From a virus: a stretch of DNA of 22,223 nt. Both the position numbers and the translations under genes were made by a program. Under the pieces are notes generated by a model. The model did not search any database. It saw nothing but the letters and a program-made list of their open reading frames with translations, and was not told the origin of the DNA. Below, piece after piece: positions 1 through 8,327 of this stretch. Within the stretch, counting starts at the first letter, position 1. Every line of letters starts with the position of its first letter. The stretch is taken from IMG/VR virus record IMGVR_UViG_3300043568_001868, positions 1 through 22,223 of that record; one strand, given 5' to 3'.

Positions 1-740
1 ATACCAACTATACTATCATACAAGCCATCAAAGAAGCCAATAATTTCGTCAATTATTGCTTTTAATCTTTCAGGATCAAATAATAATAATGCAAGTCCAG
101 CCAATGTACCTAAAAGGCTAGCTTTATTAAGAAAGCCATCTGCGAATCTTTCAAAACTAGAAGCCATACTATCTAAACCAACGGCCATTCGTTCTAAAAG
201 AGAGTTAGCATCTTCTTGTAACTTTTTAGCTTCGCGAGTTTCTTCTTCAGTTGAAGCCAATTCCTTTATTTGATTAATTTGATCCATTGCTAATTGGCGT
301 TCTTCTTCGCTAATTTCTGGATTATTTAAAGTAGTGACAGCTTGGTTAAATAGATCACGTAAAAGTAATGAATTTTCATTTGCGTCACTATTTAACGCTT
401 CTATTTTTTTATCTAGCTCAGAAGTAGATAGTTCAAATTGAGCAGCATCTTTTTCAGTAGTAAATTTTTTAGTAAGTTCAGCTAAGCTATTTGTTTGTGA
501 TTCGCTTAACTGAGTAAGTAAACTTGCATTATCTTTTTGTAAATTAGCAAGAGACTTTCCAACATTCATTAGACTTAGATTAAGAGATTTTTGTAATACC
601 TTATCGCCTGCTAGTTTTGCTTTATCGTATTCTGCGCGGAGTTTTACTCGTTTTGCTTCTTCATCGCGCTGCGCTTTACGAGAAGCTTCTAACTCTTCTC
701 TAATACGATCTAGACCGTTCATAGGATTATCTACAGCCAT
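1..740 (-). CDS. Putative tail structural (tape-measure-like) protein, N-terminal 246 residues, partial at left edge
   Basis: The frame is open from an ATG at 740 to the window edge with no stop, so the C-terminus is missing. A purine-rich GAGAGAGA lies just before the ATG and can serve as ribosome binding site. The start lies 11 bases beyond the stop of the gp51-like gene, so the two are probably co-translated. Roughly residues 8-195 are rich in Glu, Lys, Gln and Leu and look like long coiled coil. They are followed by a hydrophobic stretch around residues 207-226 (SLLGTLAGLALLLF) and an amphipathic segment. Coiled coil followed by hydrophobic helices, next to hub genes 26 and 51, is typical of tail tape-measure or hub-associated proteins (gp29 role in T4). 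No domain is recognised for certain. The function is inferred from context and could instead be another tail chaperone or structural protein. Confidence 0.5.
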   Translation of the reverse strand, partial: MAVDNPMNGLDRIREELEASRKAQRDEEAKRVKLRAEYDKAKLAGDKVLQKSLNLSLMNVGKSLANLQKDNASLLTQLSESQTNSLAELTKKFTTEKDAAQFELSTSELDKKIEALNSDANENSLLLRDLFNQAVTTLNNPEISEEERQLAMDQINQIKELASTEEETREAKKLQEDANSLLERMAVGLDSMASSFERFADGFLNKASLLGTLAGLALLLFDPERLKAIIDEIIGFFDGLYDSIVG

Positions 741-2598: not shown

Positions 2599-3192
2599 TT
2601 ATCTTCCTACACTCTTTCTAGACTCTTTCCATATGTTATCTCGAGTATCCTTTTTAAACTGCTCTGTTGGTAAGAACATTGCTACTTCCCATTCAGTAGC
2701 ATCAACTATTACTGGAGAATTTTTTACATTACTATATAAGTATCTTTTAAAGCATGGTGCAAACCATCTTAGTTTACTCGAGCTTTTTAATAAATCATAC
2801 GAAAGTTTAAACTTAGTTGATTCATCATACCGAGTATTATTGGTTATGTCTAATAACGCAGTAAACATTTTAGCTCTTAGTATTGGCGGAAGATAGTGGA
2901 GATTAATTCCGTAAAATCCGCCAGGTGCTGGTTCGACCATAATTGTTAATGGGAACCTATCATAATATGGAAGAGTCTTTTTATGTTTAGGATCATAAAA
3001 ATACATATACATAGAACCAACACGTAATCTATTTTTAGCTCTTACGGCTGGATCACTTAATAGTTTAGTGCGACTTACATTACGTAAATCTTTTAATTTA
3101 TTCATGAACCATTTACGAGACTCAACAGTGCGTGGAGCTACTCCAGCCTTGAATGCTTGTGCTTGGTACTTGTCGAAAAGTGAGTCTGCCAT
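2599..3192 (-). CDS. Conserved T4-like phage protein in the gp2 (DNA end protector) position
   Basis: A 197-residue basic protein with a signature I remember from marine T4-like phages: MYMYFYDPKHKKTLPYYDRF followed by P..I.VEPAPGGFYGINLHYLPP, and later FAPCFKRYLY and EWEVAMFLP. It has no signal peptide or membrane segment. It lies directly downstream of the gp4-like gene on the same strand. In T4, genes 2 and 4 are neighbours and both act in head completion, gp2 protecting the DNA ends. That makes gp2 the best positional guess, but I see no direct sequence match to T4 gp2, so the function is inferred. The first ATG is only six bases from the exact late promoter core at 3199-3206, so the late transcript may begin at the start codon. 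The next Met is at residue 30. Confidence 0.6.
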   Translation of the reverse strand: MADSLFDKYQAQAFKAGVAPRTVESRKWFMNKLKDLRNVSRTKLLSDPAVRAKNRLRVGSMYMYFYDPKHKKTLPYYDRFPLTIMVEPAPGGFYGINLHYLPPILRAKMFTALLDITNNTRYDESTKFKLSYDLLKSSSKLRWFAPCFKRYLYSNVKNSPVIVDATEWEVAMFLPTEQFKKDTRDNIWKESRKSVGR

Positions 3193-3198
3193 AATACC

Positions 3199-3206
3199 TA
3201 TTTATA
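3199..3206 (-). promoter_or_regulatory. T4-type late promoter core TATAAATA, 6 nt before a start codon
   Basis: The minus strand reads TATAAATAGGTATTATGG. The exact late core recognised by the gp55 sigma factor in T4 is followed after six bases by the ATG at 3192. With T4 geometry (core at about -13 to -6) the first transcribed base would be at about 3193. The AGG inside GGTATT could act as a weak Shine-Dalgarno only for read-through mRNA. Confidence 0.7.
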
Positions 3207-3262: not shown

Positions 3263-3715
3263 TTACCCAGTAAGTAATTTAATACCCAATGACTTTAAAA
3301 TATCTTCATGCCATATTTCAAAATGGTATCCACGCTCGGTGGCATACTTACTAGCGGCTATCCATTTAGATTCATTTTTAATATATGTCATTACTTCTGT
3401 GACATACTTTTTAGTTTGTCTGGCTGGTCTTTGAGGAGGAACAGTCTGTGACTTTGGCTTTATTTCTACTAACACTGTTCTGCCATTAGCAAATTTTATT
3501 TTTAAATCTATAAAGTATCTGTGTATTTTATTATCAGTTTTGCACTGATATGGTATAACAGTTTCTTCAGAAGACCATGCAATAACGTCGGTACGATCTT
3601 CACACCAACGAAAAGCTTGTCGCTCCCATAAAGATCGATACGTAACATTTGATGCATCACCAATGTACTTATCAAGTCTCTTTATTTTATATTTGCCTTT
3701 ATAAGTCTTTGCCAT
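3263..3715 (-). CDS. 4: gp4-like head completion protein, TnsA/restriction-endonuclease-like nuclease fold
   Basis: At 150 residues it matches the length I recall for T4 gp4 (50/65), which completes filled heads before tail joining. The order of motifs also matches the T4 protein as I remember it: TYRSLWER (26-33), IAWSSEETVIPY (45-56), RYFIDLKIKF (66-75), VEIKPK (83-88), then KW.AA..YA..RG..F.I..E. The acidic residues E31, D70 and E84 with K86 form the E...D...ExK pattern of TnsA-like endonucleases, so a role in trimming packaged DNA ends is likely but unproven. It is the first minus-strand gene of the divergent pair and is read from the late promoter at 3749-3756. No Shine-Dalgarno precedes its ATG. 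A gap of 70 bases with another late promoter separates it from the next gene. Confidence 0.85.
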   Translation of the reverse strand: MAKTYKGKYKIKRLDKYIGDASNVTYRSLWERQAFRWCEDRTDVIAWSSEETVIPYQCKTDNKIHRYFIDLKIKFANGRTVLVEIKPKSQTVPPQRPARQTKKYVTEVMTYIKNESKWIAASKYATERGYHFEIWHEDILKSLGIKLLTG

Positions 3716-3720
3716 AAATA

Positions 3721-3728
3721 TATAAATA
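3721..3728 (+). promoter_or_regulatory. Late promoter core TATAAATA for the plus-strand operon
   Basis: Exact TATAAATA. T4 geometry puts the start site at about 3734, giving a leader of about 43 bases before the gp48-like ATG at 3777. It faces the minus-strand core at 3749-3756. No strong Shine-Dalgarno is present in the leader. Confidence 0.7.
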
Positions 3729-3748
3729 GAATTAGTATATGTTAAACT

Positions 3749-3756
3749 TATTTATA
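3749..3756 (-). promoter_or_regulatory. Late promoter core TATAAATA for the minus-strand operon
   Basis: The plus strand shows TATTTATA, the exact complement of the late core. The predicted start is at about 3743, a 28-base AU-rich leader before the gp4-like ATG at 3715. Its start region overlaps that of the opposing promoter at 3721-3728. Confidence 0.7.
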
Positions 3757-3776
3757 ATAGGTCATTAGTAATATCT

Positions 3777-4559
3777 ATGGAAGCAAGTAATCATTTTTTT
3801 CCAAAAAATCTTATTGGTGCAAACGTGCCATTCATGCGGATTACTGCTAATCAGTATCAGTATGGTGGTGGTGGCCCAATTCGTGGATCTTTATCGATTT
3901 ATCATCCGCCAAACGTAACATTTGGAGATGGTGCTACCTTTGGATCAATTGATATGGGTCCTATTGGATCTACGCTCATGAGAGGAATGGAGACAGGTGA
4001 TATTACAGGAACAGCAGAAACTGCTAATGCGCAAATCGCCTCGTCAACTGATTTAAGAACAATGATAGCAACAAAGATTGCTATGTCATCGGGTCTCGGT
4101 TCGACTATTCCTGGTGTAGAAAATCTTTCTGATATTTATAGCCTATCAAAAGGTAAAGCAGTGAATCCTAACACTGTGACGTCATTTCAAAATATGACAG
4201 TAAGATCATTTACCTTTACATTTAAACTAATTCCTGAAGACCCTTCTGAATCAGAATCGATTAGAAATATTATAAACTTTTTTAGAAAAGAAATGTATGC
4301 TGCGCAAAGTGATGCTGGTTACTTACTATCGTATCCATCAACATTTACAATTAAATTCTATTCGCAAGATGGAAAGGAAAATTTATATTATCCTAAAATA
4401 TACGAGTGCTTTTTAACTGGAATGAGTAGTGCATACTCCACGGCCGGTGGGAATATGCATTTTGATGGTGGAGCTCCATTGGATGTTGATTTATCATTTA
4501 CCTTTCAAGAAACAAAGGTGCTTACACGCGGCGATATTAATGAGCATGGTGGAGACTAA
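3777..4559 (+). CDS. 48: gp48-like baseplate tail-tube cap
   Basis: This 260-residue protein is first in the plus-strand operon. In T4, gp48 and gp54 together cap the hub and form the platform on which the tail tube grows. Residues about 127-165 (PNTVTSFQNMTVRSFTFTF, then KLIPEDPSESESIRNIINFF) match the pattern I recall from gp48: an F-F-F tube-like strand followed by a helix that spaces subunits. The N-terminus is Gly-rich (YQYGGGGPIRGSLSIYHPP). The C-terminus ends with a final beta segment (DVDLSFTFQETKVLTRGDI). T4 gp48 is longer (about 364 residues from memory). The last base of its TAA is the first base of the next ATG (TAATG), so gp48 and gp53 are translationally coupled. The start has no good Shine-Dalgarno. 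Confidence 0.7.
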   Translation: MEASNHFFPKNLIGANVPFMRITANQYQYGGGGPIRGSLSIYHPPNVTFGDGATFGSIDMGPIGSTLMRGMETGDITGTAETANAQIASSTDLRTMIATKIAMSSGLGSTIPGVENLSDIYSLSKGKAVNPNTVTSFQNMTVRSFTFTFKLIPEDPSESESIRNIINFFRKEMYAAQSDAGYLLSYPSTFTIKFYSQDGKENLYYPKIYECFLTGMSSAYSTAGGNMHFDGGAPLDVDLSFTFQETKVLTRGDINEHGGD

Positions 4560-5332
4560 TGTTAAACTTTTTTAAATCCTTTCCATTAATACAATATCAA
4601 ATCGATAATGAAAGTGTTGATACTTCGATCATTGTTGATATCACTCGAAATATTAGAGTGTATTTAAATGAATTAGATAATGCTAATGCTTATCTTTATA
4701 AAGAAATAAATGATGGCTCTAGACCTGATCAATTATCAATGGAGCTTTATCAAACACCAAGTTACTGGTGGACGTTTTTTGTTATAAACGATAGCTTGAG
4801 TACAGGTCTTCATTCTTGGCCAAAGTCGGCGTTAGAACTAGAAAATTACATCGATGAAAAATACCCTCATATAGTATTCACTCCAGAACTAAGAACTGGT
4901 AGAACTGGTACGCAACATTGGATCCATAATTATAATCTTCTTATTGGAGAAGAAGTGCTAGGACTATCATCTGGTGCTAGAGGTGTTGTTGTTGAAATAC
5001 AACCTGAGCTTAATTCGGTCGTTATTCGAAAAACAAATACAATACCTTTTCAAAATGAGAATACTGCCTTTCTTACTTCTGCATTCGCCTTTCCAGCAAA
5101 TATTAATTATAGAAATATATTTACTCCTCAAAAAGATGGGGCGCATCATTATGTGAATGCTGCAGGTACGTCTGTTGAACGGCTGATTTTTTCTCAAACT
5201 GACCCACAGCTTCCAGTAACGAATTACGAATATGAGACCGAAGTAAACGATAGAAAGACTCAATTAAGAGTTTTAAACAGATCTGTTGTTGATGAATTTG
5301 CTACTCGCTTTCGTTCATTAATTAATAAGTGA
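4559..5332 (+). CDS. 53: gp53-like baseplate wedge subunit
   Basis: A 257-residue protein whose N-terminal half carries the gp53 hallmarks: FFKSFPLIQY, then YKEINDGSRPDQLSMELYQT and PSYWWTFFVIND at about residues 54-77. In this family that part is a LysM-like segment that positions the wedge against the hub. T4 gp53 is about 196 residues, so this one has an extended C-terminal half. The extra part includes a short beta module (GEEVLGLSSGARGVVVEIQP) and a conserved-looking tail ending RFRSLINK. It overlaps the upstream stop by one base and ends eight bases before the next ATG. Its role is in wedge assembly together with gp25 and gp6, encoded downstream. Confidence 0.75.
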   Translation: MLNFFKSFPLIQYQIDNESVDTSIIVDITRNIRVYLNELDNANAYLYKEINDGSRPDQLSMELYQTPSYWWTFFVINDSLSTGLHSWPKSALELENYIDEKYPHIVFTPELRTGRTGTQHWIHNYNLLIGEEVLGLSSGARGVVVEIQPELNSVVIRKTNTIPFQNENTAFLTSAFAFPANINYRNIFTPQKDGAHHYVNAAGTSVERLIFSQTDPQLPVTNYEYETEVNDRKTQLRVLNRSVVDEFATRFRSLINK

Positions 5333-7869: not shown

Positions 7870-7877
7870 TATAAATA
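7870..7877 (+). promoter_or_regulatory. Late promoter core TATAAATA, 6 nt before the gp25-like start
   Basis: The 18-base gap between the spike and gp25-like genes reads GGTTATAAATAGATAGC before the ATG at 7884. T4 geometry puts the transcript start at about 7883, one base before the start codon. No Shine-Dalgarno lies at usable distance; AAAGG at 7864-7868 is too far away. Confidence 0.7.
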
Positions 7878-7883
7878 GATAGC

Positions 7884-8327
7884 ATGAGTACTCAAATTCT
7901 ATCAGATAAAAGTCTAGAAACTGTTAAGTCAATAGTAGTTGCTCGTTCGCGCGACTATTCAGATCTAGATTTGCGATTTAAACCACATCCAAGTTTTGGT
8001 GATGTGGTACCATTGCGTGATATTGCTGCTATTCGTAATTCAGTTCGAAATTTAATTCTTACTGGATATGGTGAAAGACCATTTCAGCCAAATGTTGGCT
8101 GTGGTATTATGAATCAGCTATTTGAAAATTTTAATCCACTTACCGTTGCAGCAATGGAAGAATCTATTTTACGGACAATCAAATACCACGAACCAAGAGT
8201 GTCAGTAGCTAAAGTACAAATCGTTGATAAGTCTGACCTAAATTCTGTATTTGTTTCTATATTAATACGAATACTGAATGTCCCAGAATTAGTAGATGTA
8301 AATATTTATTTAGAGAGAATTCGCTAA
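7884..8327 (+). CDS. 25: gp25-like baseplate wedge subunit (GPW/gp25 family)
   Basis: A 147-residue protein with the complete GPW/gp25 signature: YSDLDLRFKPHP at residues 25-36, GDVVPLRDIAAIRNSVRNLI, then LTGYGERPFQPNVGCGIMNQ and LFENFNPLTVAAMEESI. T4 gp25 is about 132 residues. The protein joins sheath and wedge and has a lysozyme-like history in annotation, but its conserved role is structural: it binds the gp6 ring and starts the sheath. An exact late promoter sits six bases upstream. The stop overlaps the next ATG by one base (TAATG), coupling it to gp6, its direct partner in the wedge core. Confidence 0.9.
   Translation: MSTQILSDKSLETVKSIVVARSRDYSDLDLRFKPHPSFGDVVPLRDIAAIRNSVRNLILTGYGERPFQPNVGCGIMNQLFENFNPLTVAAMEESILRTIKYHEPRVSVAKVQIVDKSDLNSVFVSILIRILNVPELVDVNIYLERIR

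Follow-up and report, generated by a model that had tools for sequence, protein, structure and literature searches.

In bacteriophage T4, the late box occupies positions -13 to -6 relative to the transcription start (PMC1524935); according to the account in PMC2988020, a late promoter needs this box only. The sliding clamp is located at the upstream end of the late open complex, where it adds 13 bp to the footprint. The nick at which it is loaded must be in the non-transcribed strand, so the nicked strand sets the direction of transcription (PMC2988020). A variant, CTAAATA, is described as the late box of phage Aeh1 (PMC1524935).

Bidirectional promoters of E. coli are described by Warman et al. 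(2026; PMC12825309). There, polymerase engages one site in either direction and exclusion is expected; in that account, competition is seen only when one direction is strongly activated. The hairpin-gated late genes of T4 (I-TevI, segB and e) carry the late box within an inverted repeat; at I-TevI and segB, known hairpins hide the ribosome site (PMC2988022).

The literature searched contains no description of a conserved face-to-face pair of late promoters at the gp4 junction, and no 5' ends mapped at this junction in other phages were found in it; the main review of the T4 genome may include both T4 promoters.

Architecture of the gp4/gp48 spacer

The window (the whole stretch of DNA analysed here) is a virus record of 22,223 bases. 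Two late cores lie in the divergent spacer between gp4 and gp48 (Table 1). Both match the 8-bp T4-type box, in which the first base is variable, exactly; they point toward each other and are separated by 20 bases (3729-3748). The initial annotation had described both cores and their distance, and they were recovered as described. Recomputation with T4 geometry also returned the same start points. Each predicted start is an A in its own strand, and the 10 bp at 3734-3743 are predicted to be transcribed from both strands, giving 10 nt of complementary 5' ends.

The two promoters lie shortly upstream of virion genes, with predicted leaders of ordinary size; the shorter gp48 leader falls inside the range tabulated for relatives (-6 to 45 nt) and the longer one outside it. 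The window thus shares with the T4-type late promoter its 8-bp box, its position upstream of virion genes and a similar leader size. In the window, the transcript starts are predicted from sequence and gp55 dependence is presumed. Families of the gp55, gp33 and gp45 type had no match among the 17 window proteins scanned in this 22-kb record. An open frame at positions 1-740 (minus strand) has no PHROG match at E 0.001.

A second rightward core, the variant CATAAATA, was missed in the initial annotation. The CAT within it is the complement of the gp4 start codon.

PHROG names for the window proteins come from profile matches; the T4 gene numbers are those which we take to correspond to them, and the name gp53 for the PHROG 232 wedge subunit is presumed from T4 synteny. 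On the right, gp48 is followed by the gp53-type wedge subunit, a PHROG 350 tail protein, a gp5-type hub lysozyme and two more wedge subunits. Further left of gp4 are the gp2-type DNA end protector, a tail tube protein and a hub protein. Both sides are therefore mixed, which gives no support to the earlier proposal that head-completion and hub output on one side is balanced against wedge output on the other.

Table 1. Positions of late-promoter cores, predicted starts and neighbouring genes in the window
Feature	Position	Strand	Remarks
Rightward late-promoter core TATAAATA, gp48 direction	3721-3728	+	exact 8-mer match
Leftward late-promoter core TATAAATA, gp4 direction	3749-3756	-	exact 8-mer match
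Second, variant rightward core CATAAATA	3713-3720	+	abuts core at 3721; overlaps gp4 start codon
Predicted start points	3734 (+), 3743 (-)		T4 geometry applied to cores
Divergent spacer gp4/gp48	3716-3776		61 bp
gp4-type head closure protein	3263-3715	-	PHROG 218, E 9.7e-51; predicted leader 28 nt
gp48-type baseplate tail-tube cap	3777-4559	+	PHROG 230, E 3.5e-40; predicted leaders 43 and 51 nt
gp53-type baseplate wedge subunit	4559-5332	+	PHROG 232; next in rightward operon
gp2-type DNA end protector	2599-3192	-	PHROG 429; next in leftward operon; own core 3199-3206
Late core before gp2	3199-3206	-	gp2 ATG at 3192
Late core before gp25	7870-7877	+	gp25 ATG at 7884

Facing late cores in T4 and other named phages

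Between T4 genes 4 and 53, TATAAATA occupies 77349-77356 and the complementary core 77364-77371, with a gap of 7 bp; the expected starts are near 77362 (plus) and 77358 (minus). In an ORF-based census, three divergent T4 junctions have cores in both directions: 4/53 and inh/segE are face-to-face and 26/51 is back-to-back. Like the window, 4/53 and inh/segE combine divergent genes with face-to-face late boxes; their spacers are 47-49 bp. They differ from the window in their gaps (6 bp at inh/segE), which give no predicted RNA overlap, and in the partner gene, which is 53 or segE instead of 48. In addition, the T4 4/53 spacer contains Shine-Dalgarno complementarity and the window spacer does not. 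The complementary Shine-Dalgarno sites flank T4 77349-77371 (locus L098), and both ribosome sites could be masked in an RNA that reads through the junction.

In RB49, two junctions are face-to-face, among them 4/53 (gap 8 bp), and one is back-to-back. Face-to-face pairs are also found in C48C1 (gap 9 bp) and Milchi (gap 24 bp), and, with the CTAAATA variant, in S-SRM01 and S-CAM22. The partner of gp4 is gp48 in the window and C48C1 and gp53 in T4 and RB49.

Conservation of the paired cores

The window contains nine exact cores, compared with 5.1 on average in shuffles (nine were reached in 2 of 100); since this count is little above expectation, single cores are weak evidence. An exact face-to-face pair appeared in 24 of 20,000 dinucleotide shuffles of the window's own spacer. 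A first set of 169 gp4 sequences gave 96 unique spacers, from which filters on the length of the spacer and the size of the partner ORF retained 85 divergent ones. Of these 85, 66 contain an exact face-to-face 8-mer pair (shuffle mean 0.04, maximum 2) and 74 a 7-mer pair; back-to-back pairs occur in none (8-mer) and two (7-mer).

All 20 unique regions of the window's own group have both 7-mer cores. Conservation in this group is 0.93 and 0.95 in the two cores, 0.68 between them and 0.49 just outside. This confirms two head-on T4-type late boxes; conservation of a single core, which the initial annotation had named as an outcome that would tell against the pair, was not what was found.

Searching phages for similar DNA gave one weak match to the region, and relatives were therefore sought by protein. 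Searches for gp4 protein in viral contigs and named phage records gave 335 usable sequences, which form 31 clusters at 70% identity. Scored for the core [AC]TAAATA, a wider motif run without a shuffle control, 30 clusters are divergent. Eighteen of these are face-to-face, including L058, which is doubtful (gap 1). Four are back-to-back (Aeh1, HTVC008M, L068 and L074). Eight are one-sided, five with a gp4-direction core only and three with an opposite core only; one of the five is L072, which was scored so through a mis-set start codon and is actually face-to-face with a 14-bp gap. The remaining cluster has a co-directional upstream gene. Start codons were chosen automatically and are wrong at some loci such as L072, gaps of 0-1 are listed in three clusters (L058, L369 and L371), and members of one cluster are not independent sequences. 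Loci at which the match began inside the protein were dropped: six of 80 from the early locus sets (L033, L034, L035, L037, L078 and L079), and L362 and L368 from the 335-sequence survey. Seven gp48 loci, some from the same contigs, were left out of the gp4 counts.

The same head-on pair, for which a search of relatives had been proposed, is thus recovered both in the unique spacers and in the divergent clusters. The initial annotation regarded such a pair as abnormal, divergent promoters normally pointing away from each other. This view does not hold: of the 22 gp4 clusters that carry a core in each direction, 18 are face-to-face, as are two of the three such junctions in T4.

In the C48C1-like cluster, the pair is present in all 53 divergent loci, and no core is present in any of the 27 loci whose upstream gene was scored as co-directional; one further locus is unclassified. 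Genome-wide 7-mer pattern counts over 20 records gave a face-to-face match in eight and a back-to-back match in five. Nine of the 12 named phages among these records have no genome-wide 7-mer face-to-face match (HTVC008M, S-WAM1, S-RSM4, S-CAM22, P-SSM7, pf16, Syn9, S-PM2 and P-SSM2); two of these, S-CAM22 and P-SSM7, have the CTAAATA form at gp4. XG4 has a 7-mer face-to-face match away from gp4. Syn9, S-PM2, P-SSM2 and S-RSM4 are outside the reading of the gp4 junction.

Spacing, leaders and core variants

Across 197 unique face-to-face junctions, the gap between cores is 6 to 29 bp with a median of 17, the minimum being the cut-off applied. DNA between the cores is 70% AT, compared with 57% outside. 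At 106 of the 197 junctions, the base predicted as +1 toward gp4 is T, so initiation may be displaced by one base or more.

Gp4-direction leaders group around 16-30 nt and resemble those of late cores generally in T4, RB49, C48C1 and S-CAM22; T4 late-gene leaders peak at 20-29 nt, like those at the gp4 junction. The leader counts for T4, other phages and window-like loci all rest on a simple ORF caller. In two back-to-back cases, L074 and HTVC008M, the predicted gp4 leader is 0 nt, which fits an account based on ordinary leaders and short spacers; T4 26/51 likewise has short leaders (7, 16 and 12 nt).

Core sequence varies between groups. Both facing cores are TCTAAATA in S-SRM01-like phages; S-CAM22-like phages mostly have CCTAAATA as the core toward gp4 and TATTTATG as the one facing it. 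The CTAAATA variant, which is of the Aeh1 type and departs from the T4 TATAAATA box, sits at the same junction in these cyanophage-like relatives. It is found upstream of ORFs in S-CAM22 in 9 of 25 cases (control 7-mers: 1 of 26 and 0 of 36); the enrichment is weaker in S-SRM01 (10 of 28, compared with 6 of 86 and 6 of 60). The facing cores thus track a late-promoter variant, which supports their identity as promoters. The layout of CATAAATA over the ATG in the window is that of the usual opposite core in S-CAM22-like phages. In the S-CAM22-like loci L296-L367 (e.g. L296), the ATG of TATTTATG is the gp4 start codon; the box is on one strand and the start codon on the other.

The baseplate direction sometimes has two late cores: CATAAATA and TATAAATA in the window, and cores at -26 and -7 from gp4 in the L038 group. 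The gp4 direction usually has one.

A probable compact bidirectional late promoter

The spacer is likely to be a compact bidirectional late promoter, at which initiation is probably exclusive. The face-to-face layout is most likely an old two-way promoter of compact form and not an oddity of one phage. This reading draws directly on the presence, orientation and conservation of the cores, on predicted leader lengths and on the variable spacing.

In the proposed mechanism, two gp55-type TATA boxes face each other, and each would lie inside the 5' leader of the other gene or over its start codon. Late RNA polymerase (with gp55, gp33 and the clamp) would open the AT-rich stretch separating the boxes, in either orientation. 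As the starts are within about 20 bp of each other, two late complexes should not fit together; on this geometry, one bound polymerase should exclude a second. Polymerases meeting head-on before clearing, as first envisaged, seem less likely than exclusion, since this distance is shorter than one polymerase footprint. After initiation, the polymerase would depart across the opposite box and leave the site free again. A stretch of about 60 bp could thus turn on both operons in the same late phase. We infer that both boxes are active, that transcription begins at the predicted start points, that the promoters exclude each other and that the site is used alternately in either orientation. Conservation of both cores supports activity of both window promoters.

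This arrangement resembles the bacterial bidirectional promoters of Warman et al. (2026; PMC12825309), in that one site would be engaged by polymerase either way with exclusion expected. The elements described there are pseudo-symmetrical and have -35 hexamers; in contrast, the window has two separate boxes, no expected -35 element and, presumably, a clamp-activated late polymerase.

The layout may be ancestral to the T4 group or repeatedly retained in it, because late leaders of about 15-35 nt and a spacer near 50 bp favour overlap. Most simply, leaders of ordinary length combined with a spacer of about 50 bp would place each box within the leader of the other gene. Compactness alone does not always force the face-to-face form: T4 26/51 is back-to-back in a 50-bp spacer.

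What appeared to be a local oddity is a conserved layout open to testing in T4, where the gene 4/53 junction has the same arrangement. This well-studied phage could show whether late promoters that overlap are in competition and whether direction depends on the orientation of the clamp. Some caution is also indicated: a head-on pair should not be read as special regulation when leader and spacer lengths predict it.

Alternative explanations

Promoter interference could act as a regulator, the pair being kept because promoter competition sets the ratio of the two operons. This is possible but doubtful. Both boxes match the consensus exactly and the geometry makes competition likely; the doubled boxes in the baseplate direction of some clades (3713 and 3721 in the window, and the L038 group) and the competition in strongly activated E. 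coli promoters are in its favour. However, the basal activity of five tested E. coli promoters is too low for competition (PMC12825309), the cores are not kept in a fixed register and their gaps reach 29 bp, the partner gene is gp48 in some phages and gp53 in others, back-to-back junctions exist, and ordinary leader lengths already explain the layout. Balancing of the two operons by the promoter pair is possible but unsupported.

A reading in which the face-to-face junction is a selected direction switch is rather improbable. A shared site would be fired by clamps of either orientation, and head and baseplate operons would alternate according to local replication polarity, with exclusion coupling their outputs. 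The idea follows from the clamp orientation (the strand of the nick or primer end), which decides the polarity of the active promoter (PMC2988020).

A fixed-register operator or protein-binding dyad was considered and rejected, as core gaps vary up to 29 bp.

The two boxes are complementary, and could form the stem arms of a hairpin that hides the ribosome site in read-through RNA. Two of the four T4 face-to-face matches are at segB and I-TevI, where this is known to occur (PMC2988022). The T4 4/53 spacer also forms a stem that takes in both Shine-Dalgarno sites (z -2.07 and -1.33); this intermediate value can be explained by the complementarity of the two sites. The window group differs from I-TevI, segB and e in lacking both a stable fold and conserved extra pairing. 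The window spacer has no better fold than its shuffles (z -0.50 on the plus strand and 0.03 on the minus strand, compared with -3.53 for I-TevI and -3.94 for segB), and no stable stem containing the box is found in it. Over 90 pairs in relatives there is no conserved compensatory pairing: bases adjacent to the boxes are not paired beyond chance (Watson-Crick in 13 of 90 inner and 20 of 90 outer positions), and first-base deviations of the cores, seen in 15 of the 90, restore no Watson-Crick pair and give six G-T wobbles. Loop length also varies. On fold z and pairing, the hairpin was rejected for the window, where it is a very unlikely explanation of the pair; it may apply in T4.

Antisense control through the complementary 5' ends of the two RNAs would require the overlap to matter, which is not supported for the roughly 10 nt described in the initial annotation. 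Overlap is predicted in the window and is positive at 149 of the 197 unique junctions, but its length varies from -4 to +19 nt and it is absent at 48, including T4 (gap 7), RB49 (gap 8) and the C48C1 group (gap 9); a 10-nt AU-rich duplex should also be weak. A conserved antisense overlap was rejected because of this variation, and such control has only a remote chance of explaining the pair.

Chance, or an AT-rich spacer with no promoter function, would accord with the modest number of exact cores in the window, but is refuted by the conservation of both cores and by the shuffle tests and has a negligible likelihood.

Candidate leaderless late mRNAs

Apart from the gp4/gp48 spacer, some late cores of the window and its relatives lie very close to a start codon. 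The gp2 genes of the window's group have the layout TATAAATA-N5-ATG. Where the ATG follows the core after 5-6 nt, the predicted transcript start is on the start codon or one base before it; gp2 and gp25 of the window are examples (Table 1). Measured from ATAAATA to ATG, the predicted leader in window-like loci is 0-2 nt long in 27 of 142 contexts and 3-13 nt in none; nearly all others are 14-45 nt. Control 7-mers show no peak at 0-2 nt, and T4 has 0 of 26 contexts in this range.

A direct pattern search found 29 cases, from the window and from metagenomic contigs, of which 23 best match the gp2 of the window, down to 41% identity (L058). These sequence patterns suggest leaderless late mRNAs in the window's group. 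The class with leaders of 0-2 nt also supports, indirectly, a predicted start 6 nt after the box in this group.
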